NCBI GenBank assembly: GCA_016617855.1
Contig: JAECUM010003306.1
Span: 92,397-156,396, forward strand
Direction of reading: 5' to 3'
DNA: 64,000 bases
Origin: Megalonaias nervosa
Lineage: Eukaryota > Mollusca > Bivalvia > Unionida > Unionidae
Below the pieces are notes generated by a model. That model saw only the letters and a program-made list of their open reading frames with translations, made no database searches and was not told where the DNA came from. The position numbers and the translations under genes are program-made. Below, piece by piece: positions 1 to 60,930 of this stretch (position 1 is its first letter; every line of letters begins with the position of its first letter).

Positions 1-340
1 TTCCAGCAGCAGTTCCAACAGCACCTAACGCAGCTGCCTTTGCAACAGCTGTGGCTGCAGCTGCTATTAATGCTGGTATAGCTGCGAGAAGTGGAAATAT
101 ACCACCCGATTAAGCGATGTTTTTGATGGCGCCCGCAGAAAGATCAAGTTTAACGCCTTTGTTTGATTTTTTAGCGTCATTGAAGTTTTTGAACTGACGC
201 TCGGTCAACGATAGTTTATTTGCACCGGTCATCTGTTCTCGCTTTAGCGATATTTTTATTCCATAGTTATTTTTTGATGCAGATTGCAGCCTTTTAATCT
301 GACCAGGAGTCAGACTCACATTAACGTGATGATATGACAT
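1..340 (-). pseudogene. pX-like small virion core protein, partial (window edge)
   Basis: The frame starts at an ATG ending at 340 and reads 76 residues to a TAA at 110-112. The same frame then stays open to the window edge as an Ala/Gly-rich hydrophobic stretch beginning SGGIFPLLAAIPALIAA. The N-terminal part is built of short repeated blocks (LTPGQIKRL, LTERQFKNF, LSAGAIKNI) rich in Lys and Arg. Such a basic repeated head followed by a GG-FLPLL-type hydrophobic tail is what I know from the small pX-like core proteins encoded beside F54H12.2-type capsid genes in Polinton/adintovirus-like elements. It lies 57 bp downstream of the capsid gene on the same strand, as expected for a late gene block. 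The in-frame TAA between head and tail suggests a nonsense mutation in a fossil copy. Family assignment rests on pattern and context, not on a search. Confidence 0.6.
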
Positions 341-397
341 TATTAATATTATTAACGATCTAATTACATGTTTATTTACATATTTTCTACTGGAGCA

Positions 398-1761
398 TCA
401 ATAACTCATTCGTCCACCAACACCTTCGAGCAACATCGATTTATCGGTGAGTATAACAGCAATTGCTCCGTAATTAGGGATATCTACAATGTTTCTATTA
501 ACGCGAGCTCGAAAATGTGTATCTACAACAGACTGTCTGGTTAAATCTAAACGTTCTAGTGAAAAGTAATAAATCGGATACAGCAATGTAAAATCTAGCT
601 GCGATATTTGTAAACCAATATCAATGTTTTGATCACGTCCCATGAACGACATAAGACGATGATATGCACGTGCTACATGATTTTGATCGAAATTCAGTAA
701 TATATCCTCGGATGGTTCTTGATGTCCATTTATCCTTAATGAAACCTCAGAAACACCGAGTTGGTCAAATATATTACTTTGTGTGATTATTTACTCGTGC
801 AGTATTTTGAAGCGCAATAAATATATGTCGCGGTGCAGAAACACCTTGCTGAGAAGCTATCTGCCACGTAAATAAACCATTAATATTACTCTGGATAGCA
901 TCTGTGGTCATAGTTAACGATGATAACGTCGATTTACCGCCTTGACTCAAAAGATAACAACCGGTCTTCTTCAGATAATGACGGAGTCATCACTGGCATC
1001 CACAAGGAAAGTTTTGTTAGTATAACTATACCAGCATCACCAGCAGGTCGCCAGATTGCATCATCGTCTGTGCCTTTTCGTACTAGTACAACTGTGTGTT
1101 TGGCTCCAAAAATGGCTTTTCTGACATTTCTACAGAACCCAAAAATATGTGACAGTGGAATTGCACATGAAAATATTCTCCTATCACCTTTTAACATTGC
1201 TCGACGTGATCTAAATCCTAAGTTGAAATCTGGATCTACATTAATAATCATACTTTGTACATCCGCATCGGCGTTTCTAGCAAAATTTCTTCGTCGTCCT
1301 ATTTCATATTGTTGGTACTCTGGAGAATTAGAAGTATCTTTCACAAACATCATTGATGGACCAGCTGATCTTGAGTAATCGTCGCTGTATCTTGCAAGGC
1401 CAAGTATTGTCGTGGCAACGTCGACGTCCTTCTGGATTGATTCAATATTTTTTCCGTCAATCATGTACGTAGCGCTATCAAATAACGCCATAATACCATT
1501 ATTAACAAAGCCGACACTAATATCAGCGGCGTATGGTGCTGGTGCTGCAGGATTAGCGTTATTTATAATTTCACCTTCGACTTCAATAAATGCTTCAGCG
1601 GGTAGGAAATATCTACTTGTATCCTGAACCTGTAGTTCGATTCGTCCACGCTGATCTGGAATTCGTGCGTCGTAAGAATAATGCTGATAATCACGCACAG
1701 ACTCATCTTTGAGTACTGGTGCATCCATGTCAAACGCGGGGTCAGATACGCGCTTAAACAT
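398..1761 (-). pseudogene. Double jelly-roll major capsid protein, F54H12.2-like (Polinton/adintovirus type), frameshifted
   Basis: The ATG ends at 1761 and the first frame gives 275 residues. Reading continues in two further frames to a TGA at 398-400, for about 454 codons in all, a normal length for this family. Shared features are an early strand RYFLPAEAFIEVEGEI, the block ALFDSATYMIDGKNIES, a W-MP-PS-E motif (LWMPVMTPSLSEEDRLL), LFTWQIA, PRHIFIAL, a LYPIYYFSLERLD block and a SVVDTHFRARVN block near the C-terminus. All are recognisable in the uncharacterised protein F54H12.2 family, the capsid-type protein of Maverick-like elements. Frame changes lie near 940-960 and near 780-790, so the copy cannot make a full protein as read. 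It is followed by a pX-like gene and preceded by a pVI-like gene 8 bp away on the same strand. Function: the shell protein of an icosahedral particle. I am confident of the family and less sure which element subtype it belongs to. Confidence 0.82.
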
Positions 1762-1769
1762 CTTTATTA

Positions 1770-2219
1770 TTATCGTCTTCGTCTAACTCGAAGACCACTT
1801 CGGGAAGTGAGACCACTTCCTGCTATCAGACTAGCGGTTATATTTGTTTCCTTTTCCGACATCGGGATATCAGTTAACTCCGCTAGTTTTTGATTAGCGG
1901 CTTGATTTATTATTTTACTTACACTTGCGGGCATCACTTCAGTGCTAGGCAATTTCACAGGTTGAGGTCGGGTCGCTTGTGGTCTGCGTATTAATCGTGA
2001 TAGTCTATCTTTGATTGCTGAGAATGCTTTGCTAGCAAGATTACCAACAGCGCCTATACCTTTTTCACGAACAACATCAATAGCTTTCATTCCTAGCTGC
2101 TTTGCAATCGGTATTGCTTTTGGGGCTATCCTTCTAAACAGACCCTGAATAACATCACCTAATCCATCTCCGTAGGTCGTTTTGTATACCGGTAATCGAG
2201 AGTTTATTACCCTGACCAT
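1770..2219 (-). CDS. GLG-type basic minor virion protein (adenovirus pVI/pX-like)
   Basis: An intact 149-residue frame. Near residue 18 it has the signature YGDGLGDVIQGLFRRIAPKA, followed by an amphipathic, basic helix region (AIPIAKQLGMKAIDVVREKG, AVGNLASKAF). It ends in an Arg-rich tail (SGLRVRRRR). In Polinton/adintovirus-like elements the gene just upstream of the F54H12.2-like capsid typically has this G-x-G-LG-GLFR-P layout. It is compared with the membrane-active or core proteins pVI/pX of adenoviruses. Only 8 bp separate its stop from the capsid start, so the two genes sit as a tight late cluster. It is the only gene of the block with no stop or frameshift, which may be chance given its short length. 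Whether it is expressed cannot be judged from the sequence. Confidence 0.65.
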   Translation of the reverse strand: MVRVINSRLPVYKTTYGDGLGDVIQGLFRRIAPKAIPIAKQLGMKAIDVVREKGIGAVGNLASKAFSAIKDRLSRLIRRPQATRPQPVKLPSTEVMPASVSKIINQAANQKLAELTDIPMSEKETNITASLIAGSGLTSRSGLRVRRRR

Positions 2220-2286
2220 GGTAGGTCCACGTGAGTATTGTGTATGATCATTTTATTATTAAGTGACTTTATCACTAATTACATAC

Positions 2287-3411
2287 TTAGTCACTATGAT
2301 AATCATCGGCGATTTCATTAATGAGGGATCGATATACATTAATATCCATGATACCGCCTGTAAATAATCGTTTACAAATATCAGCTACTTCATTAATGAT
2401 TTCTGGGGAATTATTACCAGCTCGTTTTCCTCCAATGAGAATTTCTAATCGATCGACATCAGCAAGGACATTATTGGGACAGGTAATAAAACCACTTCCT
2501 AGACCACTTCCAGTTGTGTCAGGAGCGTCTTGAATTTCTTCTTCCTTACTTGTTTTGACTGATTGTAATCGTTTTTTTTTTCTTTTTCTAGTTGTTGTAG
2601 TTCTCGTTGTTCTTGTTCTCGTTGTTGTCGTTCTTGTTGTAGTCGTGGTGATGATGGTAATTCTGGATAATCACGAAGTGATTGCTCAAATGGTTTTGGT
2701 ATTTTTTGTTTTGGAGGTTTTTGTTTCTTTTGTTTGTTGTTTTTGTTGTCGTTCTTGTTTTTGTTTTTTCTCCTCTCTTCTTAATTGAATTAAATTATCA
2801 ATTTCCCTAATATAACCCTGATATAATGGATCATTATCTCTAGCTTGTTCAACATTCATACGAATACGATATAAATATTTTTGCCATTGTTCACTGTTTC
2901 TAATATCTTTAGCGTGTTCAGGTTTCATTAATTTATTTCTTCGACTAAAACCATCCACAGCAAACTCAACTAGTTCATCTCGGTTCATTTTATTAATTGC
3001 CTTAATAGTTTCTTCAAATTTATTTATCAATTCAGCAGTACTTAGACCTACTGATTTTGGTTTAGGGGCTAGTGCTTCGGCACCTTCAGGTTGATCTTCA
3101 TCCTCAAGTATTTCCGGGACTGGCATCGCAGCAGCTATTTCGGCTGGAAGTTCACGTAAAATTTCTTTTGTCTTTTTTGTTCTTCTTGCTATTTTTCCAG
3201 TTGCTTCAGCGGTTTTCTCTAACACAGGTAGAATACCTTTAGTAGTCTCAGTGATAGGTTTAAATACTTTTTTTGTATCTTCAAATTCAACTTGAGATTC
3301 CTGACGCGATTGTAGTTGTTGCTTAACAGAATCACGAACAGGTAGATATTTTTTAATTGCCTCTAGTCGCTCTCAAGCTAATTTAGCTGAGTGTGATTCT
3401 CCAATACTCAT
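2287..3411 (-). pseudogene. Unidentified charged coiled-coil protein of the virus-like block, broken
   Basis: The most upstream gene of the block. An ATG ends at 3411 and the frame carries a TGA at codon 13 (3373-3375). It then stays open through an acidic linker (EDEDQPEGAEA) and a long Lys/Glu/Gln-rich coiled coil to 2686. Reading passes into a second frame somewhere in 2715-2750 (PKQKIPKPFEQSLRDYPELP) and back into the first frame at a 10-T run at 2572-2581 (plus-strand bases). The C-terminal part (CPNNVLADVDRLEILIGGKR and MDINVYRSLINEIADDYHSD) ends at a TAA at 2287-2289. The total of about 375 codons, with the two shifts cancelling, argues for one ancestral gene. Its position before the pVI-like and capsid genes suggests a structural or morphogenesis role, but I do not recognise the family. 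Confidence 0.55.
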
Positions 3412-3445
3412 TATTGATAATATCTATAATGGCTGTTTAATTTTT

Positions 3446-3614
3446 AGCAGCAGAGAGGGTGGACGACAAACGTATGTGACCAGCACGTGAAAAAATTTGG
3501 TCAATTAGAGAAATTCTCATTATTAAGGCAAAAACTTTTTCAGCCTTCGTAGGAACCCTTTAATTTCAAAAATAAGGTCTCTACAAAGTTGTAGGGTCCA
3601 CCCTCTCTGCTGCT
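3446..3614. repeat. 169-bp foldback unit with perfect 19-bp inverted repeats
   Basis: AGCAGCAGAGAGGGTGGAC at 3446-3464 is the exact reverse complement of 3596-3614. The pairing continues weakly inward. No clear target-site duplication flanks it. It sits 35 bp upstream of the first virus-like gene, so it may be a terminal or subterminal structure of that element, a hairpin near its promoter, or an independent MITE. Confidence 0.75.
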
Positions 3615-4383
3615 CAAAGTAAACATCTTTTTTAAACTACGAGAAAAGACAGGTAGGCCTAAACTCTACTCTCAGTCACAGACAAAAGCACACTATATAA
3701 TATTAAATATACATAACAGGAAACAATTAACAAGCTGCAACATGAATATATGAAAATTCCTTCTTTAATTAATAATTACAAAACACAGTTCTCAGAAAGT
3801 GAAAGGAATAAATTTCCACTGTTGAGGTGGCATTATAGATACTTTTGTAAGAAAGCATTATATGGCTATGAAGGTTATTCAGATCTAGTATAAGGTTCTC
3901 TAGATCAGGAAAGAAAATGGTCAATCTTTGGATTATGTAAATAGTTGGCAAAAAAAGGGACAAGAAGTACTTTAAGGTCTGTCAGTGGAATATTAGTTGG
4001 ATGCTTTCTGCTGATACAGTATATGAAAGTATGATTAATCTGCAAAGTATCAATCGACCAGAGGAAGACACAAAAATGCTTAGGGATATACCTATTCTTC
4101 AGTTCGAAAATATATGTTTTGAGTGCAAATATGTGTGTGAACATGAAGCAGGAATACATATTGGCATCTAATTGCAAAAATTGCAACATAATGTTGAAAC
4201 ATACAATGATATCTCTGATGGTTTATGCCTCTGAGGAAAATCCACCATGCCCCCATCATACTTATATTTCCCAAAAGCTGTCTTATGGATGCAGAAAGTG
4301 GCTTGCAAAACTGAGCTAAAATTAGCCCAACACTGAGGCATGTGTAATGGGCTGTACTGGCCCTGGTATTGCAGGACAGAAGG
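3615..4383. other. No gene recognised
   Basis: AT-rich DNA with only short chance reading frames on both strands. No coding signature, tandem repeat or transposon end was seen. This probably marks the return to host flank after the virus-like block. Confidence 0.5.
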
Positions 4384-4660
4384 ACGTGTGTGTGCATGTG
4401 TGTGTCTGGTTTGCATTTTAAACATAGCTTTAACAATTTTGCAGTCATATTGCTAGGATGTCTACAGAATGGCATTTTATAGTGATGTCTAGTACTGGGG
4501 CATCATGCCGCAGACATGTAGCATCATGTCCCACCCAGTCCCATTATCCTGACACCAGGCCAACCAATCCCAACACTAACCTCTTAATGCTGAGTGCCTA
4601 GCAAGGCAGCTGTTAGTATCATTTCGTAAGTCTTTGGTATGATTTGGCAGGGGTTCTAAT
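4384..4660 (-). mobile_element. tRNA-derived SINE, head-truncated copy
   Basis: It matches the SINE at 21748-22080 over its body. Shared blocks include TAGCTTTAACAATTT, ATGTCCCACCCAGTC, ATTATCCTGACACC, CTTAATGCTGAG and AAGTCTTTGGTATGA. The GT-rich tail (minus-strand CA) is at the low-coordinate end. The copy breaks off at the start of the tRNA-like promoter head, so it could not be transcribed by itself from an internal promoter. Confidence 0.7.
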
Positions 4661-6564: not shown

Positions 6565-7960
6565 GGGAAAAGAAAAGAAAATGAACTGTTGAAGGAAATT
6601 GGTTATTTGGAAAATGTATTAAAAACAAATTTTAATATATTGAATTCGGATGTACTTTAAGGTTTGAAAATTCAGCTTTAAGAAGAAATGGAAAAGTAAA
6701 AGGGTTGATTGTTCAATCAAAAAATTAATCTGTAGAAGTAGAAAAAAATGACAATATTTTGGTAGCTTGGAAAAAACATTTTATGAACAAAACAGTAACA
6801 AGTGAAAAATGTTTCAAGTCAAAATATTCCGACCAGTTCAAAATTTTGAATGAGGTGAGAAAGTTCTATGATACATTATTTAGTAAAAAAGATAATACAA
6901 GTAAAATAAAACTTTGATATACTGGGAAGATTTGAGATTCCTAAATTTACAAACAGTGAATCAAAACAATCATTGAAATAACTTTTGGAGGTTTCAAAAT
7001 GCCTAAAGAACATGAGTGTTGGTAAAAAGTTCAGGAAGTGATGGATTCATTATTGAATTTAATAAATTCTTCTGGAAGGATTCAAAGAAGTGATTTTATC
7101 AGTAACACAGAGGGAGGGAATTATCACATTATTGCAGGAAAATAGATGTAGAAAATTTCTGAAAAATTCGAGACCTATTACTTTGTTAAATATTTCCTTG
7201 GAAATATTTATAGCTATAGCTACAACTAATACAGTTATAGCTAGCAGAATTTAAAAACGTATATGCCAAAATACATTAAAGTAAAATTGGCTTATGAAAG
7301 AAAAGTATATTGGGGATGTAGTCAGGTTGATATATAAATTATGCGCTTTACTGAACTGAACAGAATAGTATGAATGGTATTATTTTACAGGCTGATCTTG
7401 AAAAGCCTACAGGAAGTGCTTTCTTTAATTTTGGTGAACAAATGAAGTATTTTATATATATTCAACAGAAATGCAAAACATGTGATTTAAAATAGATTCG
7501 CACAATCACAGTTTTTCATAGTGGACATGGATGTTGTCAAGGGGATCCACTCTCCTTATTTGTGTCTATTTGTAGCAAAAACTATAGAAATTATATTTCA
7601 GAACAATGATATTGAAGGCATATGCATAAATGGATCTGAAAATAAACTGGTACAATATGCTGATGATACATGGTTCTTGTTAAATGCATCAGAGAATTCC
7701 TTGCATGCCTTGGTAGAAACATTTGATGCATTTGGATCAATGTCGGGACTAAAAGTGAATATCAACAAAATTATAAAAACAAGGGCATTTAAGAATACTG
7801 AGACAGATTTTTACAAATTTAGAATTTCATTGGGTTTCAAATTTCTCTTTATCAGGAGCTGAATTATCCATAAATACAGAAGGCATTGTAGAAATACATT
7901 TTGAAAACAAATTCAGGATGTACAAAAAATTTTAGGCAAATGGAATCAAATAAAATGGAA
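6565..7960 (+). pseudogene. L1/Tx1-like LINE reverse transcriptase remnant
   Basis: Read in several frames on the plus strand, this stretch gives the successive blocks of an L1/Tx1-clade reverse transcriptase. Near 7010-7060 is a GKSSGSDGFIIEF-type block. Near 7090-7200 is a GIITLLQENRCRKFLKNSRPITLL block. Near 7300 is a KYIGDVVRLIY-type block. Near 7525-7560 is CCQGDPLS, and at about 7650-7670 the catalytic box QYADDTWF, followed by SGLKVNINKI. The only sizeable open stretch is 7521-7862. Stops and frameshifts are frequent, the endonuclease is not visible, and the 3' boundary is unclear. This is an old, 5'-truncated copy. Confidence 0.72.
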
Positions 7961-21747: not shown

Positions 21748-22080
21748 AGTGTGTGTGTGTGTGTGTGTAATTTGGATTTTAACGTAGCTTTAACAATTTG
21801 TCAGCCATATCGATACGATGTCTGCAGTGTGGCAGTTTATTTTTATGTCTAGCACTGAGGTATCATGCCCCGGATACGTAGCATGATGTCCCACCCAGTC
21901 ACATTATCCTGACACCAAGCGGACCAGCCCTAACTCTAACATCTTAATGCTGAGCCCCAAGCGAGTCAGCTGCTAGTACCATTTTTATAAGTCTTTGGTA
22001 TGACTCGGCCAGGGTTCGAATCCGCGACCTCCCGCATCCGAAGCAGACTCTATAACCAAGTAGGCAACCGGAGCGGTCCT
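21748..22080 (-). mobile_element. tRNA-derived SINE, near full length
   Basis: Read on the minus strand, the first ~70 bases (22080 to about 22010) look like a tRNA-derived promoter head. There is an A-box-like TTGCCTACTTGG and a B-box-like GGATTCGAACCC at the expected distance. The body shares ATGTCCCACCCAGTC, ATTATCCTGACACC and CTTAATGCTGAG with the copy at 4384-4660. It ends in a (CA)n tail (plus-strand GT at 21748-21768). The body resembles SINEs I associate with bivalve genomes. It has no protein and would depend on a LINE partner. Confidence 0.8.
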
Positions 22081-34497: not shown

Positions 34498-34555
34498 CAC
34501 GGGAAGAAATTAAATATTTTGTAGCAAAGTTCCCGTGACAACGCAAAACTAAATT

Positions 34556-35187
34556 GACAGACAGACAGACAGAAAGAAAGACGGAAAGATAGAAAGAAAG
34601 ACTGACAGACAGAAGACAGACAGAAAGACATAGACAGACAGAACGACAGCAAAAACGACAGACAGACTGAACAACGGAAAGAACAACAAACAGACAGACA
34701 GAACGACCGAAAGACAGACAGACAGAAAAAAAGAAAGAACAACAGACAAAGAACGATAGACAGGCAGACAGACAGTCAGGCAGAAGGACAGAACGACAGA
34801 ACCTCAGAGATAGACAGAACGACAGACAGAGCGACAGGCAGACAGACAGACAGAACGACAGACAGAACGACAGACATACAGAGAACGACAGACAGACAAA
34901 GAAAGACGGAAAGACAAAGACCGACAGAAGACAGACAGAAAGACAGACAGACAGACAGAACAATAGAAAGAACGACAGACTGACAGAGAACGAGAAAAAG
35001 ACAGACAGAACGACAGACAGACATACAGAACGACAGAACGACAGACAGAGACCAAACGACAGACAGAACGACAGACAGACAGACATAACGACAGGCAGGC
35101 AGACCGACAGAAAGACAAAAAGAACGACAGACAGACAGACAAGGAAAGAAAGACAAACAGAAATACAGAAAGACAGACAGACAGAAA
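34556..35187. repeat. 630-bp GACA-rich simple-sequence array
   Basis: The plus strand consists almost wholly of GACA, GAACGACA, GAAAGACA and GGCAGACA variants, with no pyrimidine-rich interruption. The minus strand therefore reads as Cys/Ser/Leu/Val-rich pseudo-proteins in all frames, which are artefacts. It begins about 60 bp after the outer end of retrotransposon copy 3. Confidence 0.95.
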
Positions 35188-37269
35188 TCAATAAAAACCG
35201 AGAAATATGTTACGTGTATAATTTAAAATTAATTTTACATTGAATAGTACATTATGGAATTACACTTTACACCTCAATCTTGTGTGAAAAGTATGTACTG
35301 GAATTGTGGTCTACGGTGTCTCGTCAAATACAGGTTTTCTACACAATATTAATTTGTAATATAGAAGCCGATATTTTACTATTCTGTGTAAAATAGACCT
35401 ATGAAATTGGTTATATCTCTTAAGAGACCTTCTTTTGGCATGCCCTAATTAGTTTACCTAGCCCTAATTAGTTTACTTAGCTGTCTCAGAGTAGTTTAGA
35501 AACACAAAAGAAAACATACAAGCTTGTACTTGTTAAGTGTGTAGGTTAATGATCATAACCATGGAGAAGAAAATGACCTGATGAGTTGTAAAGAGGTGTC
35601 GATGCAACTGCAGCACAACGTACAGTATAATCCAGTAAAGCCAATAAGATGGGAGTACAACGGCGGAAATGTGGACTTGAACACATTCCCTGATTCCTGT
35701 ATGTCTGCTCACAACTACAAAGGACCATGGCGAATCTATATCCCTTAACTCGATGGATCTGCATGACGTGCAGGTAGATAACTTGCATAATAAATTTAGG
35801 ACGACAGCAATTCACAAATGTTCTACAAAACAACTGGTGAATCGTTATTTTAGCATATGAAAATTAACTAAATAACGAACACTTCTATAAAATACATATT
35901 GACAGGGACTTTAAAATTTCTGCGTTGCCCTTCACTCAGTTTGTGACATTGTATGGTCAGTATTATAAGGGAGTTTTACAAATTCTTCCTTATTGAAAGC
36001 TAAGGTCTGCTAGGCGGACACTAATATCGTCTTTAATACTGACTGTACATAGGGAAGTTATACATGCCAGAATGTGTGGGTGCTCCTTCCAATTCTGTCA
36101 AAGCATTAGGCACACAATCCAACAATTGGATCCGATCTACCCCTACAGTAACAGAAAGGAAATGCATAAAGAAAGGAGATTGACTTTGCTTACCATCTCG
36201 TAGCGCTCGTAGCACCAAGCTTTCAGTTTCTAAATATTTTTCTCATTTACTTGTCGTCCACACAGATATCCAACACTCAAATATCTCCTTAATCATATCT
36301 TGAGAAATTACTTTGACGGATTGTTCCATCTTCCTATGTCAAGTGTTCTATCAATAAACAGTGACATTAGAGAAAAAATAATATAGAAAGCTCCACAAGT
36401 GAGAAATGCCTGTTGGACAAACACTTCCTCATCTCTGGCAGTTCAACTGTAAATTAAAAGATAGACAAACAAACAGACTTGTCAGCTGCAGTTGTCTATG
36501 AAGGAGAAACAAATGAAGGTGCCTGAAAGCACTGCTCCAACGTCTGAAACGCCAGTGCACCAGAGGAGAACGGGACATAATTCGTTACTGCTCTAGGGTG
36601 ATGCAAGCTGTGAAAACCTTTATAATTTGTTAAATCTTGACTGTTGATCAGTTCGTGCCGTTGTTCCAAACGTACATCTTTTATAGCATCAGACTTGTTT
36701 TTGCTCTCACATTGTACAGTTTGGTTTGCCTATGAGCGTGTCCCCAATCTCTAAATTACATATTAATGCATCAGACACTGGTAGATTGCAAGATAGCAGC
36801 ACATTCCAACTTTTCTTTCAAGGAGTAGTTTAACTGCTACTGCCTTTGGCGATATCAGAGCTCACAGAGGACTATTTAATCGTTCATGGATTGCTGCTAA
36901 AAAAAGCCTTGAGCAATATACATAAAACTCTTGTGCTATACCAAATGCATTTATTTTCGGAAACTTTACGACATATGCAGCATTTATTTTGTCTAAGTAA
37001 TATTATATTAGTGGGGGGGGGGGGCAGGGCATGTTTGTATTAATGACCAAATCAGTTTGTAGGGACAATGGGAAATGTGATGATAATTAGACTAATGATA
37101 AATTCCCATTGTACTCATTTACAATAATGTTAAACGTATGCCACGTTTTGTAAACGGCACCAAAATGCCACACCATACTACACTTCACCCTGTATTTTGA
37201 GTAAATCCACAACTTTTCATTTGGTTGAGTGATTTCAATGAAATTATGAACATGTGTCAAGGGACAAAT
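35188..37269. other. No gene recognised (2.1 kb)
   Basis: Short frames only. A 12-G run lies at 37013-37024 and a 21-bp direct duplication of CCTAATTAGTTTAC-type words at about 35440-35480. A slightly GC-richer patch at 35580-35790 has no recognisable product. Confidence 0.4.
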
Positions 37270-39187
37270 GTTCACCACTTCCAACTACCTTCTCTCTAGT
37301 CGACCTTCCGGACCTGTTTGCAAATTTCTTCCGTGACAAAGTACAAACCATCAGAGGTGAACTTGACAACACAATTTCAGTTGACTCGTCGTCACCATAT
37401 AGTTGCGATACAGAATTTAAGCGGTAACCGTTAGCTGCATTTGAACACGTCTCTATGGATTTAGTACGTACAATCGTGATGAAGAGTGCACCAAAGTCAT
37501 GTGAACTTGATCCGATTCCGACATCATTGCTGCTTGAGTGCTTAGATCCAATATTGCCTTCACTAACTGAAATTATTAATACTTCTCTCTCATCCGGGGA
37601 ATTCCCATCATTTTTCAAAACTGCCATTGTAAAGCCTCTTCTGAAGAAACCAACACTGGACCATAACGATTTACAGAACTACCACCCAGTTTCTAATCTC
37701 CCATTCATGTCAAAAATCTTAGAAAAAAGTTGTTCTATCCCAACTTGTATCTCGTCTGAATTCAAACAGTCTTTTTAGTAATGTACAGTCTGCATATCGC
37801 CCTTGCCACAGTACTAAAACTACTCTTCTGAAAGTAGTTAATGACCTTCTCTCTGCTTTGGATAGCGGAATGATTACAGTCCTCACTCTCCCTGACTTGT
37901 CTGCAGCATTTGACACAATAGACCATGATATATTACTTCACCTTCTCCAGCATGTATTTGGCATTCACAATACAGCCTTACTATGGTCAAGTCCTACTTG
38001 GTCAACAGGACACAAATTGTGTCCGCAAATGGAAAACACTCCAGCCCAGTTGATCTATGTTGTGGTGTTCCACAGGGGTCAGTTATTGGACCTGTTCTCT
38101 TCATTCTATACACTCAGCTTCTCTCAAGTGTCATAGATCATCATCCAGTGTCTCACCAATTGTATACTGATGACATCCAAATATACAAATCTAGCCACCC
38201 AACTGAAGTTGAAGCTACCATCCAAGGTGTAGAGAGGTGCATTTCCGATGTGAAATCATGGATGACATGTAACAAGCTGCAGATGAATGATGACAAAACT
38301 GAAGCCATTCTGATTACAACACAAAGACTTTCTCATTCACATCCTTTACCTCAGACAATAAATATCAGCAACACCAACATTAAATTCACACAGTCAGTAA
38401 ACCTCGGTATTACTCTCGACAGTACTCTCATCGCACCAACATGTCATGAACATATGAAAAGCTGCATATCTTGAGCTGTGACGCATCAGCTCCATTCGCA
38501 AGTATCTTTCAGTTGATGCCACTAAAACACTTGTGTGTTCCTTAGTACTTTCAAGACTGGGCTATTCTAACTCAATTCTGTCTGGTTCGTCTCAATATCT
38601 ACTCCAGAAACTTCAAAAAGTTTAAAACACAGCTGCTCGGATCATCCTTAGAGTACCACGATCAGAGCACGCCTCCCTCCCCCCGCTCTGTACCCTACAT
38701 TGGCTATCCATTTGATCCAGAATTAAACACAAAATTTGTTCTCTGTGCTACGTTTCACTGACGGGCTCCAGTCCAACATACCTATCTGACCTCACCCATG
38801 TGTACACACCAGCAAGACACTTACTCTCCTCTTCTGACACTCGTATTCTCATTATTCCCACTATGAAATGAAATCATATGGACAACGTTCTTTTGCATAC
38901 CAGGGCCCAGCAACGTGGAACGAATTGCCCACTGAACTTGGACACAAGACACAGTGATCTGATTCAAGAGTGCTCTTAAAACCCTCCTATATCAACTGGA
39001 AGAACAGACTTAAAGACCTAAAAATGTTTCATTACCTTAAATATTTACAGCATGTTTTCTGTTTTCTAATTTCGTGGTGTTTGCTTTTATTTTTGTAATC
39101 ATATCATTATGTTTTTTTAGTGTTGTCAAATGTTGTAAAGCGCTTAGAGATTCTAAAGATTAGGCTTTATACAAAATCCTCATTATT
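37270..39187 (+). pseudogene. L2/CR1-like LINE, 5'-truncated and frameshifted
   Basis: The plus strand reads the C-terminal half of a CR1/L2-group ORF2. In order it has a linker LPDLFANFFRDKVQTIRGEL, then APKSCELDPIPTSLL, LQNYHPVSNLPFMSKILEK, DLSAAFDTIDHDILLHLL, GVPQGSVIGPVLFILYTQLL, the catalytic box YTDDIQIY (normally YADD) and SWMTCNKLQMNDDKTEAI. Near 38900 is FAYQGPATWNELPTELG, typical of this group's C-terminus. The longest open stretch is 37983-38474. At least three frame changes and several stops make it dead. The 3' end carries GTAAAGCGCTTAGAGATT and TTAGGCTTTATACAAAA followed by TCATTATTAT, which I know from L2-type tails. The endonuclease is absent. Confidence 0.85.
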
Positions 39188-53225: not shown

Positions 53226-53319
53226 AGAATTGAGATTTTCTTGCTTTAGGACATGAGCCTGTTCCTTACTCTTACTAACAGAATGTGTTCTTCACGCCAT
53301 GGGCCTGTGCTCTTAGTAT
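53226..53319. repeat. Minisatellite, left part (interrupted by the LTR element)
   Basis: It contains GCTTTAGGACATGAGCCTGT, TACTCTTACTAACAGAATGT and CACGCCATGGGCCTGTGCTC, diverged units of the ~40-bp repeat that resumes at 59904 on the far side of the retrotransposon. Confidence 0.75.
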
Positions 53320-54241
53320 TGTTACGTGCAGGCTCCTACAAATGTAACAAAAGGAAAGAGTAAAGTCAACAAGCTTTGTAAATTTTAACAAAATAATTTA
53401 TTTCTCTAGAAAACAATGTAAAAATAGGAAATAGGACTTACGGTTTGTGAATATAATCCAAAAATTAATACTAAAGTTGAAAAATATAAGTCCAATCACT
53501 AAACAGTTGTAATTGAATCCAGGTTCGAATCTCGATGAAATTCCAATATGGAGGCGATGACGTCAGATAAGGTTGTTGTACTGGTGGCAATAGATCCTCG
53601 ATTGAATCACAGTTTATAATGTTTTCATTTATAATTCCAGAATAAATTTCCACTAAATTTCTTTCTCCCAGAACTTTTATAAATATGAAGCACTTGTTTA
53701 GTTTTCTAGAGAATAAATTATTAAATTCCAAAAAAACAGATGAACTTCAAAACAATCTGACATCAGCAATTGAAACACCTTGTACCTTCAAGGTGTAAAC
53801 ATACGATTGACTGGAAAGCTCTCAGAATGAGTATTAAACCCATCTAAAACGTCATTTCATTCCCGCGTGATGGGTCACGTAATCACTTAATCATGAAACC
53901 GCGCAATAAAAAAAAAAACTGTCATTTGTCACTACGTTAGAATAGCCCTATCTAAGAATCAAATTCTCAACGCTAGAAATAAATCTAAAAATAAAACGTT
54001 GTTTATTCAGACTAACACGTAGGCTTAAATGACCTTGACAATAGCCAATCGTTATTACTCGATGTTTACAAAATCTGTGAGCTAATAATAGTGCTGAAGC
54101 AACGTTAAGATCTAATCGGGTCATGCCAATTTTCGGAAAAGAGATTCAAATCCAATGAAAATTATATTTAGAATAAAATGCAATGAAACAAAAATAAAAT
54201 AAAAAAGAACACACAAGAAATTAAATTACATATACTTAACA
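53320..54241 (-). repeat. 3' LTR of the Gmr1-like element
   Basis: 922 bp, nearly identical to 58973-59903. In plus orientation it starts TGTTACGTGCAGGCTCC and ends ATATACTTAACA, so the LTR has the usual TG...CA ends. A conserved 86-codon frame (53471-53731, minus) is also present in the other LTR with a single visible residue change (GER versus GDR). Confidence 0.9.
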
Positions 54242-54250
54242 CTTCCCCCC
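54242..54250 (-). other. Polypurine tract
   Basis: On the minus strand GGGGGGAAG lies directly before the 3' LTR start TGTTAAG, the expected plus-strand priming site for reverse transcription. Equivalent purine-rich junctions are seen in copies 2 and 3. Confidence 0.75.
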
Positions 54251-54375
54251 ATAAAAAAAGAAAGGTTTATACAATAAAATTTTCTTTTTATCATATGTAA
54301 ATTATACATGAGGTAAAACACAATTGCATAAGAACACTCTTATGAATCATATAAAGTGTACATGAAGTATTATTT

Positions 54376-55765
54376 CTATACACGGGAAAGTGCATCTGCA
54401 ATCGAATTGTCTTTTCCTTTGATGTGCCTGATGTGAAGATTATATTCTTGCAAAAACAAACTCCACCTTAATTATCTTTGATTTTTTTTTTCATCTTGTC
54501 GATGAAAGTAAGGGGCTTGTGATCACTAAACACAACAACTGGAGAAGGAGCTGAGCTAATGTAAACTTCAAAATGCTGTAATGCCAATATTAAAGCCAAA
54601 CATTCCTTCTCGATTGTTGAGTAATTTCTTTGATGCTTATTTAATTTCTTAGAGAAATGGCACACTGGGTGAGCAACACTATTTCTATCTTCTTGAATCA
54701 ATACTGCTCCAACCAAAGCATCACTTGCCTCCACAGATAATTTAAAAGATTGATTGAAATTTGGAGCTTTGAGAACATGCACACTTTTGAGTATGGCTTT
54801 TAATCCATCAAAAGCCTTCTAACATTTTTCAGTCCAAAGAAACTTGTTTTTCTTACTCAACAAATTTATCAGAGGTTCAGCAATATTAGAAAAATTGAAA
54901 CAAAATTACCGATAGTAGCCGGCCATACCCAAAAATTGCATCAGTTGCTATTTACTGACAGGCACAATGAAATCAGAGATAGCCTTGACCTTAGCATCTA
55001 TAGGTTTAACTTGACCATGTCCCACAATATGTCCTAGAAATGTACACAAGCACGGCAGAACTCACTTTTAGATAAATTAATTGTCAAATTTGCATCAGTG
55101 AGTCTTTCAAAGAATTTTCTAATCGTGGCTAGATGTTCTTTCCAGGTGTCGTTGTAGATGATGACATTATCGATGTAAGCATCACAATGATCAAGACCAG
55201 AGGTAATCATATTCATCAAGCGTTGAAACGTACTTGGGGAACCATTCATTATTTTATATTTATAGAGTCTATCTGGAGTCACAAATTCCAAAATTTCCTT
55301 TGCTCTTTCCGTAAGTGGAATTTGCTAAAATCCTTTCAGAAGGTCAAATTTCGTGACGTACTTGGCATTTGCAATTTTATCAATACAATCATCGATTCTT
55401 CGTAATGGAAATGAATCTGTTTTTGTCACACTGTTCACCTTCCTATAATCAGTGCACATACGGAAAGTTTTATCTGGTTTTGGAACAAGTACACATGGTG
55501 AACGCCAATCACTTTTACTGGGCTCTATAAAATCGTTCTACAGCAAATACTAAATTTCCTTTTTCAGGTATTTCTGTTTGAGAGGGTTCATCCTGTATGG
55601 TTGTTGTTTCACAGGTTTTGAACCTACAATTTCAACGTTATGAAAAATGTTGTTTGTCCTCGTAGGAATATCTGGAAACAAGTGCTCATATTCGAATAAT
55701 AACTGTTTAAGTTCATTCCTTTCTTGTTGTTGTAAATGCAAAAATTTCTGGTCCAGATTTTTCAT
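54376..55765 (-). pseudogene. Pol, reverse transcriptase and RNase H domains
   Basis: From 55765 the N-terminal linker runs through LFEYEHLFPDIPTRTNNIFH. RT blocks follow: DYRKVNSVTKTDSFPLRRI near 55400-55450, YKYKIMNGSPSTFQRLMN near 55210-55260, and the catalytic box as YIDN (55166-55177), where YxDD is expected. RNase H (54782-54468) has EASDALVGAVLIQED, in which the usual first Asp is Glu, then STIEKECLALILAL and VFSDHKPLTF. After a T-run frameshift near 54481-54490 it resumes with HIKGKDNSIADALSRV, the typical RNase H end, and stops at 54376-54378. Several stops and frameshifts interrupt it, and the altered aspartates argue against activity. Confidence 0.88.
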
Positions 55766-55919
55766 AATTTCCGAATTCTGAAGATTTGTTGCTCCAAGAT
55801 CAACAGAGTCCTCCTGAATTTCTTCAGTTAAATCCTCAGTTGGTGGGACAGGTACAACTAAATTAATTGCATGATTTTTTGGCCATCTCTAGCAATATAC
55901 TAGTACTCCATTAATTAAT

Positions 55920-56640
55920 TTAGACCAGAGTACTATAATTATAATTTAACTCATTCATTTTCTTCTTTACTTTGTAAGGGCCGTAAAACCTAATTTGAGT
56001 AAACTTTTGAAGAATAAGAAAGCGAGAATGAACTCTATTATAAGACTCAAAACTTCTCTCAATTAAAGTTCTGTGAAACCATGATTTCACTTTTGACATG
56101 AATTGCAGAATGCCAAATTCAAGCATAACTAGCTGGAAAATTCCAGATATAAACTTTGACCCTTGACCTGATTGGACAGATTTGGGAAGGCTAAATTGAG
56201 TAAAGAACTTTATCAAAGCTTTTACTATGGTTTTGGTTTTAATATTCCTCAAAGGATTTGCCTCTGGGAATCTTGTTGACGCCCACATAATGGCCAACAA
56301 ATATTGGTTGCCTGGCTTGGTCTTAGGTAAGGGACCAACACAATCTACCATAATTCTGCTAAATGGTTCGTCAAATGCAGGAATAGGTTGCAGATGAGCC
56401 TTAGGTATCTTCTGATTGGGTTTTCCTACCATGTGACAAGTATGACAAGATCTACAAAATTTACAAAGATCACTTTTGATTTTTGCCCAATAAAAGTGAA
56501 ACTAGATCTTGTGATAAGTTTTATTTATCCCTAAATGACCAGCCAGAGGAGTTTCATGGGCCAAACTAAGTATTTCCTGTCTGTAAGATTTTGGAATTAG
56601 AATCTGATAGTTCACTGACCACTCGTCACCAGCAGGTACC
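55920..56640 (-). pseudogene. Pol, integrase domain (H2C2, core, GPY/F)
   Basis: The zinc-binding domain spans HETPLAGHLGINKTYHKI and, after an in-frame TAG at about 56500, CKFCRSCHTCH, completing an HHCC pattern. The core begins at FSRIMVDCVGPLPKTKPGNQ (first catalytic Asp) and continues LLAIMWASTRFPEANPLRNI. The second catalytic block reads QSGQGSKF where QSDQGS-F is expected, so that Asp is lost; the third (Glu) block is degraded. A GPY/F module, YGPYKVKKKMNELNY, ends the domain at about 55930-55985. Lying upstream of RT, it defines the Gmr1-type order. Confidence 0.85.
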
Positions 56641-57019
56641 TCGGGAGGTCTCCATTTTCTCATAAGAATTCCATTTTTAATGAAATAACAGACAGGAACT
56701 TCAGTGGCTTTAGTTTTACTAATGGCCCTCTGAAACAAACAGGAGATCTCAGGATCTTCCTCCTGTTCGACGACAAGTGATTGTTGTTTATCACCCAGAT
56801 TAGATAAAAGAGAATGAGTATTTAAAAGAGGATCACTGTAATCAATACGTTTTGATTCATCCAAATTAGGAGTGAAAGTGACCTCATCAAAAGCCTGACC
56901 AATGCATATGTCAGCTAAAGGAATACTTTCCTTATCATAATCATTCTCATGAGCTTTCTTTGCCATAACTCCGGTAACTGCACAAGCTGGGTATACATCA
57001 GTAAATTCTTTTTCAATAG

Positions 57020-57440
57020 CATAAATTTTCTGATTAAAAGAAGGCTTGTCAGTTACAAGTGGATTAACCACAACCTTGTCTACAGCTAGGTCGTTGCCTA
57101 GTAACAAATAAATGCCCTCAACGGGTAAAGAAGACACTATACCGACTATCACAGGTCTTGAAACTAAGTCTGATGACAAATTTACAGAATGGTGAGAAAC
57201 ATTAACAAAACCGCACTCTACTCCCTGAATAAGAACACTCTCATTAGAAGAAGACTTCTCAGAAAGAGGCAAATTACCTGATAATTAAAGACTCTGAGAA
57301 GCTCCTGTATCCCTTAAAATTTTAATAGGGATAGGATTGGCCAAATCACCCAAGAGTGACATAGAACCCTTCGACATGTATGGTTCATAATTCTCCATAA
57401 TAAGATCAGACTGGGGTTTATTAGACCCAACAAATGTATT
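57020..57440 (-). pseudogene. Pol, aspartic protease domain
   Basis: The active-site motif reads ILRDTGASQSL, with DTGAS at 57297-57311. It is followed at once by an in-frame TAA (57285-57287). Downstream the frame is open with VLIQGVECGFVNVSHHSVNL and the C-terminal IYLLLGNDLAVDK, corresponding to the hydrophobic-LGxD motif of retroviral-type proteases. It would cleave Gag-Pol in virus-like particles. The TAA makes this copy defective. The open frame then continues to 56502 through a linker into the integrase zinc domain. Confidence 0.82.
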
Positions 57441-57443
57441 GCT

Positions 57444-58803
57444 TTAAATACATGACCGTGACTTTGACCTCTTAGAAATAAGCGCATTTGGGATAGGTCT
57501 ATCTTGATTCTGATGCCTATATTTCAATTTGAAGCAATCAGAAATGACGTGTCCTTTTTTCTTGCAATAGGCACACGTAGGAATAGACAAGGATATTGAA
57601 TCAAGTTTACCAGAAGCTTGATTTTTAGAAGTTGTGCCAGACTGAGTTTTAGGAGGAGTCGTAATAGGCTGAATTACCATTCTTTCAGTAGGCTGCTGAG
57701 TGAATGATTTGCCTGCAACAGGATATTTATGAGTTAAGGAATACTCATCAGCAGCAAGAGCAGCATTTTCCAAGGTTTCAATCTTATGCTCTTCATGATG
57801 ACTCTTAATGTCATTGGGAACACAATTCTTGAATTCTTCAAGTAATACAAGTTGTTCGCGACTTTCATAATCATGTTCAACTTTCTTGGCTAAGCACCAT
57901 CTCTTAAATAACTGCTCTTTTTCTCTTGCAAATTCAACATAAGTTTGTCCAGCTTCCTTTTTATAATTTCTCAAATTTTGCCGATAAGCCTCAGGGACTA
58001 ACGCATAACCCCTTAAGATGCACTCCTTAACCAAATCATAGTGAGAACTTTGTTGTAATGACAGAGATGCATGGATATCTCGGGCCTTGCCAAAACATAC
58101 ACATTGCAATAATTGACTCCAATGCTTCCTTGGCCATTTCAAATTTTTAGCAACATTTTTAAAATAAATAAAATATTTGTCTACTTTTTTTGTCTCCAAA
58201 AGGGGGCTCTAACCTGATATTTCTTGTAATGTCAAAACTTGAATTTGTATGTGAAGTGGTTATGTGCTTTGGACTTACCAGCTCAAATTCTTTCATTTTA
58301 ATTTGAGATTCCCTTTCATCCTTCTCTTTTTGTATTTGCATCTGTACGTGCATTTGTTCTTTTTGTCCATTCACTTGCATTTGCTTATCTTTCTCCCTCT
58401 CCTGTCTCTCCTCTTTCTCAAATTGTAATTTAATTTATTTATCATCCTCTCTTTGTTATCTCTCTCTCTCCTCTTTCACAAATTGTAATTTCATTTGTTT
58501 ATCATTCTCTCTTTCCTCTTTCTGAAGCTCGAGCTTCCTTAACTCCAATTCCATCTTGTATTTCATTTTTAATTCCATTACTTTAATGTCAGAGTCTGAT
58601 ACCGACTTACTGACCGAAGTCAAAACACTTTTATCAAGAACATTCTTCTCTACCAAATATTGAATCAAAATGTTTTTAATTTCTTGTTTCATCAAGGAAG
58701 CTTTTGCCTCAGAAAGATCGTATTTTCTGGCAAGTACAAGCAACTCATCTTCTTTCAAACTATCCAACTGCTCCTGAGTAGGACTAGAAGGAAAGGTCTC
58801 CAC
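57444..58803 (-). pseudogene. Gag with SCAN-like capsid and CCHC zinc knuckle
   Basis: The start codon ends at 58803. Residues ~12-55 form a SAP-like helical block (LKEDELLVLARKYDLSEAKA). Next comes a Lys/Glu-rich coiled coil with two in-frame TAA codons near 58415-58458. A frameshift near 58200 leads into a 251-codon stretch. Its capsid part (VPEAYRQNLRNYKKEAGQTY, VEFAREKEQLFKRW) strongly resembles SCAN domains, which are known to derive from Gmr1-like Gag. The nucleocapsid end has CAYCKKKGHVISDCFK, a CX2CX4HX4C knuckle, and a basic tail. It would form the particle and bind RNA if intact. The combination of SCAN-like capsid and the pol order makes the Gmr1 assignment firm. Confidence 0.87.
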
Positions 58804-58945
58804 TTTTAATTATATTGTGAATGAAAGCCTGTTGTTTTCACTAATTATTTCAAACAAAATGTAAAATAGTACTTGAGATTTAAAACCTAGGGGAATTTAA
58901 ATTTCAAAAAACAGTTTTCTGAAATATTTTAGCCAAAGTTCATAT

Positions 58946-58963
58946 ATCCAGGACGAGCCCCCA
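58946..58963 (-). promoter_or_regulatory. Primer binding site, proline-tRNA-like
   Basis: On the minus strand TGGGGGCTCGTCCTGGAT differs at one position from the 18-nt site complementary to the 3' end of tRNA-Pro, as used by murine leukaemia viruses. It lies 9 nt inside the 5' LTR. A degraded equivalent is at 33724-33741 in copy 3. Confidence 0.8.
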
Positions 58964-58972
58964 ATTTTCTCT

Positions 58973-59903
58973 TTTTACGTGTAGGCTCCAACAAATATAA
59001 CAAAAGAAAAGAGTGAAGTCAACAAGCTTTGTAACTTGTATCAAAATAATTTATTTCCCTAGAAAACAATGTAAAAATAGGAAATAGGACTTACGGTTTG
59101 TGAATATAATCCAAAAATTAATACTAAAGTTGAAAAATATAAGTCCAATCACTAAACAGTTGTAATTGAATCCAGGTTCGAATCTCGATGAAATTCCAAT
59201 ATGGAGGCGATGACGTCAGATAAGGTTGTTGTACTGGTGGCAATAGATCCTCGATTGAATCACAGTTTATAATGTTTTCGTTTATAATTCCAGAATAAAT
59301 TTCCACTAAATTTCTATCTCCCAGAACTTTTATAAATATGAAGCACTTGTTTAGTTTTCTAGAGAATAAATTATTAAATTCCAAAAAAACAGATGAACTT
59401 CAAAACAATCTGACATCAGCAATTGAAACACCTTGTACCTTCAAGGTGTAAACATACGATTGACTGGAAAGCTCTCAGAATGAGTATCAAACCCATCTAA
59501 AACGTCATTTCATCCGAGTGATGGGTCACGTGATCACTTAATCATGAAACCGCGCAATAAAGAAAAAATTGTCATTTGTCACATACGCTAGAATAGCCCT
59601 ATCTAGGAATCAAATTCTCAACGCTAGAAATAAATCTAAAAATAAAACGTTGTTTATTCAGACTAACACGTAGGCCGAAATGACCTTGGCAATAGCCAAT
59701 CGTTATCACTCGATGTTTACATAATCTATGAGCTAAAAGTAGTGATGAAGTAACGTTAAGATTTCATCGGATCATGCCAATTTTCGGAAAAGAGATTCAA
59801 ATCCAATGAAAATTATCATTAGAATAAAATGTAATGAAACAAAAATAAATAGAAAAGACTTTTAACACTAACACACCTGTAATCAAATTACATATACGTA
59901 ACA
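58973..59903 (-). repeat. 5' LTR of the Gmr1-like element
   Basis: 931 bp. It starts on the minus strand with TGTTACGTATATG and ends in ACGTAAAA, where the other LTR has ACGTAACA. It would contain the promoter and polyadenylation signal. The frame at 59124-59384 repeats that of the 3' LTR. Confidence 0.9.
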
Positions 59904-60930
59904 GAATTATAATTTGTGTTTCAAGCCTTGTGTTTGTACTCTTAGTATTTGAATTTGTGTTTTAAGCCACGGTTTATACTCTTAGTATTATAATTTGTGT
60001 TTTAGGCCATGGATTGTACTCTCGATATTAAAATTTGTGTTTTGGTCATGGTCTGTTGTCTTAGTATTAGAATATGTGCTTTAGGCAATGGCCTATGCAC
60101 TTAGTATTAGAATTTATGTTTTAGGCCATGGATTATACTCTGAGTATTACAATTTTTGTTTTGGCCCTGGTCTGTAGTCTTAGTATTAGAAGTTGTGTTT
60201 TAGGCCATAGTCTTTACTTTTAATATTTGATTTGTTTGTTTTAGGCTATGGTCCATAATCTAAGTATAAGAATTTGTGTTGTAGGAAATGGGTCTTTACT
60301 CTTTGTATTAGTATTTGTGATGTAGTCCACGATATGTACTCTTATAGCTGCAATTTATGCTTTTGGCCATCGTCTGTAGCCTTAGTATCAGCATTTGTGT
60401 TTTGGGCCCTGATCTGTACTCTAATATTTGAATTTGTGTATTAGGCAATGGGTCTGTGCTATTAGTATTATAAATTTAGTTTTAGGCCAATGGTCTGTAC
60501 GCTTAGTATTATAATTTGTGGTTTTGTTCATGGGTCTGTACTCTTAGTATTAGAACTTGTGTTCTAGGCCATGGTCTGTACGCTTAGTATTAGAATTTGT
60601 ATTGTAGGCCATGGGTCTGTACTCTTAGTATTAGAATTTGTGCTTTAGGCAATGGACCTGTACTCTTACTAATAGCATTTGTGTTTTAGGCCATGGATCC
60701 ATAATCGTAGTAATATAATTTATATTTTAGGCCACATGTCCGTATTTTTAATATTTGAATTTGTATTTTAGGTCATGGAACCATCCTTGTCGTATAAGAA
60801 TTTGTATTTTAGGCCATGGGTCTGTTCCTGTACCATTAGTAGTAGAATTTGTTTAGGCCAAGGGTCTGTACACTTAGTACTAGAATTTATGCTTTAGTCA
60901 ATGGGTCTGTTCTATGATTCTTATTAGTAG
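59904..60930. repeat. Minisatellite, ~40-bp unit, about 25 copies
   Basis: The unit reads approximately TTAGTATTAGAATTTGTG + TTTTAGGCCATGGTCTGTAC + TC. It recurs without interruption with substitutions and small indels. Units also occur at 53226-53319, showing that the retrotransposon landed inside the array. Confidence 0.92.

Follow-up and report, generated by a model that had tools for sequence, protein, structure and literature searches.

We analysed a 64,000-bp window of the genome of the freshwater mussel Megalonaias nervosa (contig C2771, JAECUM010003306.1, positions 92397-156396; the assembly has 2.19 Gb in 54,709 contigs). Homeodomains gave 95 matches in this genome and were found in none of 14 control genomes, as expected of animal DNA. 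Window positions 1-3614 are most probably the late end, with the virion genes, of an integrated polinton-like virus (double-stranded DNA, 15,689 bp) that has a Tlr1-type replicase and belongs to an endogenous lineage inserted many times (we put the probability of this reading at about 0.88). The window element is one of several thousand copies and not a lone relic. It is a fossil, with broken capsid, coiled-coil and core genes and an open 1,080-amino-acid replicase frame.

Gene content of the complete element

The complete element occupies C2771:80322-96010. The initial annotation had placed a fossil late-gene cluster at 1..3411 and expected replication genes to the left of the window. The cluster is present and most of its genes are indeed broken, but its extent was given slightly short, since the element ends at 3614 and runs about 12 kb beyond the left edge of the window. 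Reading away from the window, these 12 kb hold the end of the core gene, an adenain-like protease gene (motif GTHWVGY, read by eye), a fibre-like gene with repeats of the phage tail-fibre type, a penton-like pair of frames, an HNH gene and the replicase gene. Still further leftward are an RVE integrase (PF00665, E = 8.6e-9, 36.0 bits against a cut-off of 32.6, L010:9285-9998), a parvovirus-type phospholipase A2, a zinc-ribbon gene and an A32-type ATPase. The left flank is thus not made of plain host genes: a second terminal repeat was found there, as were integrase, packaging ATPase, replicase and, by eye, the protease-like gene.

The phospholipase A2 lies within the element at L010:8962-9306 (PF08398, E = 4.7e-13), and PMC4642659 describes some Polintons that carry such lipases. 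Farther left of the element, in L011, a reading frame like that of a long interspersed nuclear element (LINE) was seen by eye.

In the mechanism that we propose for the intact lineage, the PolB-like/SF1-helicase protein would copy the linear genome, and the A32-type ATPase would package it into a double jelly-roll capsid together with pVI/pX-like core and fibre-like proteins. The adenain-like protease would mature the virion, the phospholipase A2 may help entry, and the RVE integrase would insert the DNA by way of the terminal repeats, giving 5-bp target duplications. What the sequences show is the gene content, the fold of a capsid relative, the terminal repeats and 5-bp duplications, the copy number, purifying selection on the capsid between copies and the decay of the window copy; that virions formed and reinfected, and what each enzyme did, we infer.

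Terminal repeats and target-site duplications

The right terminal inverted repeat (169 bp, window 3446-3614) is bounded by inverted 19-mers at 3446-3464 and 3596-3614. Its partner on C2771, L010:7926-8124, is inverted and 75% identical to it over 202 columns including gaps. The right copy of the target-site duplication CAAAG stands at 3615-3619, and the left copy precedes L010:7926. Eleven full elements were compared, including that of the window. A perfect 5-bp duplication was present in seven (C2, C12, C23, C72, C79, C129 and the window), four of five bases agreed in C78, and no duplication was seen in C27, C65 and C147; none of the 11 had a 6-bp target duplication. By chance a 5-bp duplication would be expected about once in 1,000 pairs.

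Identity within the terminal-repeat pairs ranged from 79 to 99% in ten other elements and was at least 97.5% in six of them (97.6-98.9%). This spread suggests that younger and older insertions coexist. Repeat identity is not a clean clock, because C27 has an open capsid frame, yet its repeats are only 79% identical.

The same 19-mer is inverted at both ends of each such repeat (for example L024, L025 and window 3446-3614), so a hairpin is possible. Locus L044 (C21:406013-406660) is a 648-bp internally deleted copy that has both ends and its own 5-bp duplication, ATTGG, and suggests that non-autonomous copies were mobilised in trans. Because inverted 19-mers bound each terminal repeat, the repeat was also considered as an independently moving small element, a reading that was rejected: seven of eight units were ends of larger elements, and the remaining one was the 648-bp deleted copy.

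Late gene cluster

Four consecutive minus-strand genes, for a charged coiled-coil protein, a pVI/pX-like 'GLG' minor virion protein, the major capsid protein and a pX-like core protein, were read from frames within window 1..3411. This is the order that the initial annotation had proposed, and homologues were found for the capsid and pVI-like genes. An origin of the four frames by chance is excluded on the sequence comparisons.

The coiled-coil gene (2287-3410, ATG near 3410) is broken by an early in-frame stop and, further on, by a shift of frame within a K/Q-rich low-complexity tract, which leaves frames at 2686-3372 and 2287-2670. In copy L004 this protein is a single frame of at least 336 amino acids. 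The pVI/pX-like gene (1770-2219, ATG at 2219, frame 1770-2252) matches 35 proteins, none with a listed Pfam domain. It is separated by 8 bp from the capsid gene (376-1761, ATG at 1761), which is broken and was recovered by tblastn as three pieces, each in its own frame (stop-to-stop frames 934-1782, 774-986 and 398-790). About 35 bp further on is the N-terminal part of the core gene (110-340, ATG at 340), which has an in-frame stop at 110-112; the frame beyond this stop (1-109) is open to the window edge and continues in L009. Seven other loci were inspected. The capsid is one 471-amino-acid stop-to-stop frame in three of them, and the core gene reads past the position of the window copy's stop in six; in the seventh, L008, no core gene was found.

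The capsid frame matched PF21738 above its curated cut-off (E = 6.3e-7, 29.3 bits against 27) and matched 31 proteins with E from 6e-29 to 5e-134; all 28 of 28 relatives matched PF21738 at E ≤ 0.001. On this profile and on fold searches with a capsid relative, the protein is a double jelly-roll capsid, as had been supposed. In a Potamilus protein (P0010), the pVI-like protein and the capsid are fused in the same order as in the window. Searches of the PDB with the capsid sequence gave no rows in one case and two chance-level rows in another, phage records searched with the capsid gave nothing, and the fold searches returned no entry named Tlr1. The name F54H12.2, which the initial annotation had used for the type of virus, was returned by no database match, and no paper was found under the term.

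Replicase and class assignment

An SF1 helicase of the RecD/Pif1/Dda kind forms the C-terminal third of the replicase, on which Pfam, PHROGs and PDB searches agree. Before it, PolB-like motifs A (DMVACYP), B-like (KIIGKF) and C (ATDS) were read by eye, with HNAHAW upstream. Three other copies were inspected (L013-L015); motif C is ATDS in the window copy and in all three, and motif A was found by a strict pattern in two of the three. A nuclease motif, CASC...CLECN, follows the helicase. It is in the replicase frame in L013-L015 (with a stop between in L013), whereas in the window copy it is out of frame, in an 86-amino-acid piece without a Pfam match. L009 and L012 are the same copy in this comparison.

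The Tlr1-like helicases described in PMC11071308 have this layout, have lost the first Asp of motif C and carry C-terminal HNH or GIY-YIG nucleases; in Tlr1 itself, PolB comes first and the helicase last, according to PMC12721341. A PolB-like/SF1-helicase fusion of the Tlr1 kind is therefore the likeliest assignment for the replicase, as judged from motifs and layout.

The element had been called Maverick/adintovirus-like. As an element class this stands in part: the Polinton/Maverick traits of an RVE integrase, terminal inverted repeats, a double jelly-roll capsid and a packaging ATPase are all present. The label is loose, because the replicase resembles a PolB/SF1-helicase fusion and the duplication is 5 bp and not the 6 bp of Polintons/Mavericks. 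A Tlr1-type polinton-like virus fits better, and the trait pair of that type, a double jelly-roll capsid with an RVE integrase, is present.

Copy number

A 19-base end motif had 5,960 and 5,943 exact matches on the two strands genome-wide. A 24-base capsid motif had 3,492 and 3,399 (6,891 in all), and a back-translated replicase motif 3,110 and 3,019 (6,129 in all). The reversed control of each motif gave 0 and 0. Among the matches listed, the replicase motif lay 7-14 kb downstream on the same strand in 27 of 58 capsid-motif loci (C1 to C159). Eight elements with both outer ends matched were 15.5-17.7 kb long. If all 6,129-6,891 copies were full length, they would make up about 96-108 Mb, or 4-5% of the genome, a figure on the high side as copies can be partial. 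No two of 14 compared capsid genes were identical and the lowest pairwise synonymous divergence (dS) was 0.035, though uncollapsed haplotypes could inflate the counts.

Selection on the capsid and alternative explanations

A protein search scored at least 138 capsid places, many with open frames near 470 amino acids, and these were ranked by similarity to the window capsid. Among the intact copies so ranked (frames of at least 440 amino acids, 14 of 19 loci), the ratio of nonsynonymous divergence (dN) to dS was 0.231 over 91 pairs, and 0.244 over 78 pairs. Because ranking by similarity favours low dN, dN/dS was calculated again on elements picked by their terminal repeat (15 elements, ten with both ends and five by one late end). 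C29, which has no capsid, and C147, which has a partial one, were dropped; the remaining 13 elements and the window copy gave 91 pairs, from which codons with gaps or stops were left out. Median dN was 0.109, median dS 0.681 and median dN/dS 0.178 (range 0.115-0.615). Once broken, a copy is expected to drift neutrally, and the low ratio must therefore date from before each insertion. A median of about 0.18, though 13 of 14 capsid genes are broken, thus indicates that the lineage spread while capsid function was under selection. The same argument is made for vertebrate Mavericks in PMC8097293.

This ratio bears on whether the element could be a self-replicating transposon that multiplies in the genome without virions and carries capsid genes as mere passengers. 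Copies in the thousands and the broken state of most sampled capsid genes would suit such a transposon, as would the deleted copy that points to movement in trans, but the low dN/dS indicates that capsid function was kept between insertions, and we consider this explanation unlikely. Still less probable is a Polinton/Maverick or adintovirus of the canonical kind, whose protein-primed PolB has an exonuclease of its own. The integrase, packaging ATPase, double jelly-roll capsid, terminal repeats, adenain-like gene and pX/pVI-like genes would all be at home there; however, the one gene seen that resembles a polymerase has an SF1 helicase at its end, no PolB-family profile matched the replicase or the left flank, and the duplication was 5 bp in 7/11 and 6 bp in 0/11 elements, against 6 bp in the intact vertebrate Mavericks of PMC8097293. 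If a host locus had been domesticated to make use of the capsid or its peptides, the open capsid frames in many copies of the similarity-ranked list would be explained. Domestication is hardly credible, given copies in the thousands that bear terminal repeats and target duplications and a window copy broken in several genes.

Several results count against the polinton-like virus that we favour. The missing PolB match is one of them, and the polymerase part of the replicase is read from motifs seen by eye together with a published description. The protease-like gene had no profile match and only chance-level rows in the PDB search, and the penton-like frames, also recognised by eye, had no convincing profile match and again chance-level PDB rows. 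Confidence in the capsid model was moderate. A capsid gene was present in 14 of the 15 elements picked by terminal repeat and open in one of these (C27, 469 amino acids). Searches of IMG/VR with the capsid, two capsid profiles and the replicase found no free virus, in a scan that may omit records near this genome.

A further reading is tentative, and we hold it at somewhat less than even odds: that a Tlr1-type polinton-like virus able to make capsids has inserted 6,000-7,000 times in the genome (about 4-5% of it if full length) and that its lineage continues to go through virions, perhaps even now. The many open capsid frames, the high identity of six of ten repeat pairs and a capsid dN/dS of about 0.2 suggest such continuing passage.

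Comparison with known elements

Like Tlr1 of Tetrahymena and the polinton-like viruses with a Tlr1-like helicase (pPolB-S1H), the mussel element has a packaging ATPase, a double jelly-roll capsid, an RVE integrase (as in Tlr1) and PolB-like motifs (read by eye) followed by an SF1 helicase and a nuclease motif, with the first Asp of motif C replaced. It differs from these in its animal host, PF21738-type capsid, parvovirus-type phospholipase A2 and thousands of copies; it also has an adenain-like gene, whereas a protease is absent in Tlr (PMC4028283).

Vertebrate Mavericks, as described in PMC8097293, are alike in length (about 17 kb, against 15.5-17.7 kb here), in having integrase, ATPase and capsid genes, and in being mostly decayed copies whose capsid genes are under purifying selection. 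They differ in their 6-bp duplications and separate pPolB. For four named genomes that hold intact copies the totals given there are 101-135, and defective copies by the hundred are mentioned for two more, compared with thousands here. Adintoviruses and meldviruses likewise combine virion genes like those of adenoviruses with an integrase of retroviral type, and some of their chimeras have virion proteins resembling those of larger DNA viruses (PMC11071296). That source defines adintoviruses by a hexon that BLASTp can recognise and by an OTU-like domain in their PolB, traits that may set them apart from the mussel element.

High copy numbers are reported for capsid genes of Maverick-Polintons and polinton-like viruses in PMC10120064 (2,224 and 4,841 in two Trichomonas, 2,535 in Polarella and 3,251 in Paulinella), in hosts that are protists, whereas the host here is an animal. 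Outside the main metazoan Maverick cluster, the relevant part of the same source places only cnidarian capsids. Mavericks are among the superfamilies found in all mollusc genomes analysed in PMC10294476.

For each such element it is debated anew whether it is a virus or a transposon, and vertebrate Mavericks are mostly of low copy number (PMC8097293). Here one animal genome holds thousands of copies of one family, young and old; their replicase is of a kind known from elements associated with ciliates and protists, and their capsid is under purifying selection. The virus-or-transposon question can be tested directly on this family, which also serves as a dense fossil record for a lineage of DNA viruses, probably one of molluscs. 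Our literature search, which most subscription papers lay outside, found nothing on this element family in freshwater mussels. The Megalonaias nervosa genome paper reportedly noted an amplification of Polintons, and the scale may be partly in print.

Other repeats in the window

A long terminal repeat (LTR) retrotransposon lies at 53319-59856 on the minus strand. Its paired repeat segments, which are 97% and 92% identical and lie 5.65 kb from each other, enclose reverse transcriptase, RNase H and integrase frames, and its gag-like frame matches a SCAN domain (E = 2.2e-12). It adjoins a degenerate tandem array whose unit is about 40 bp long (59892-60923). Two broken LINE-type reverse transcriptases (RVT_1) were found on the plus strand, at 7491-7859 (below the curated cut-off) and 37929-38471. 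A long GACA-rich simple repeat occupies 34538-35202, and a 208-bp dispersed repeat, possibly a short interspersed nuclear element, has two copies that are 81% identical (4417-4624 and 21777-21984).
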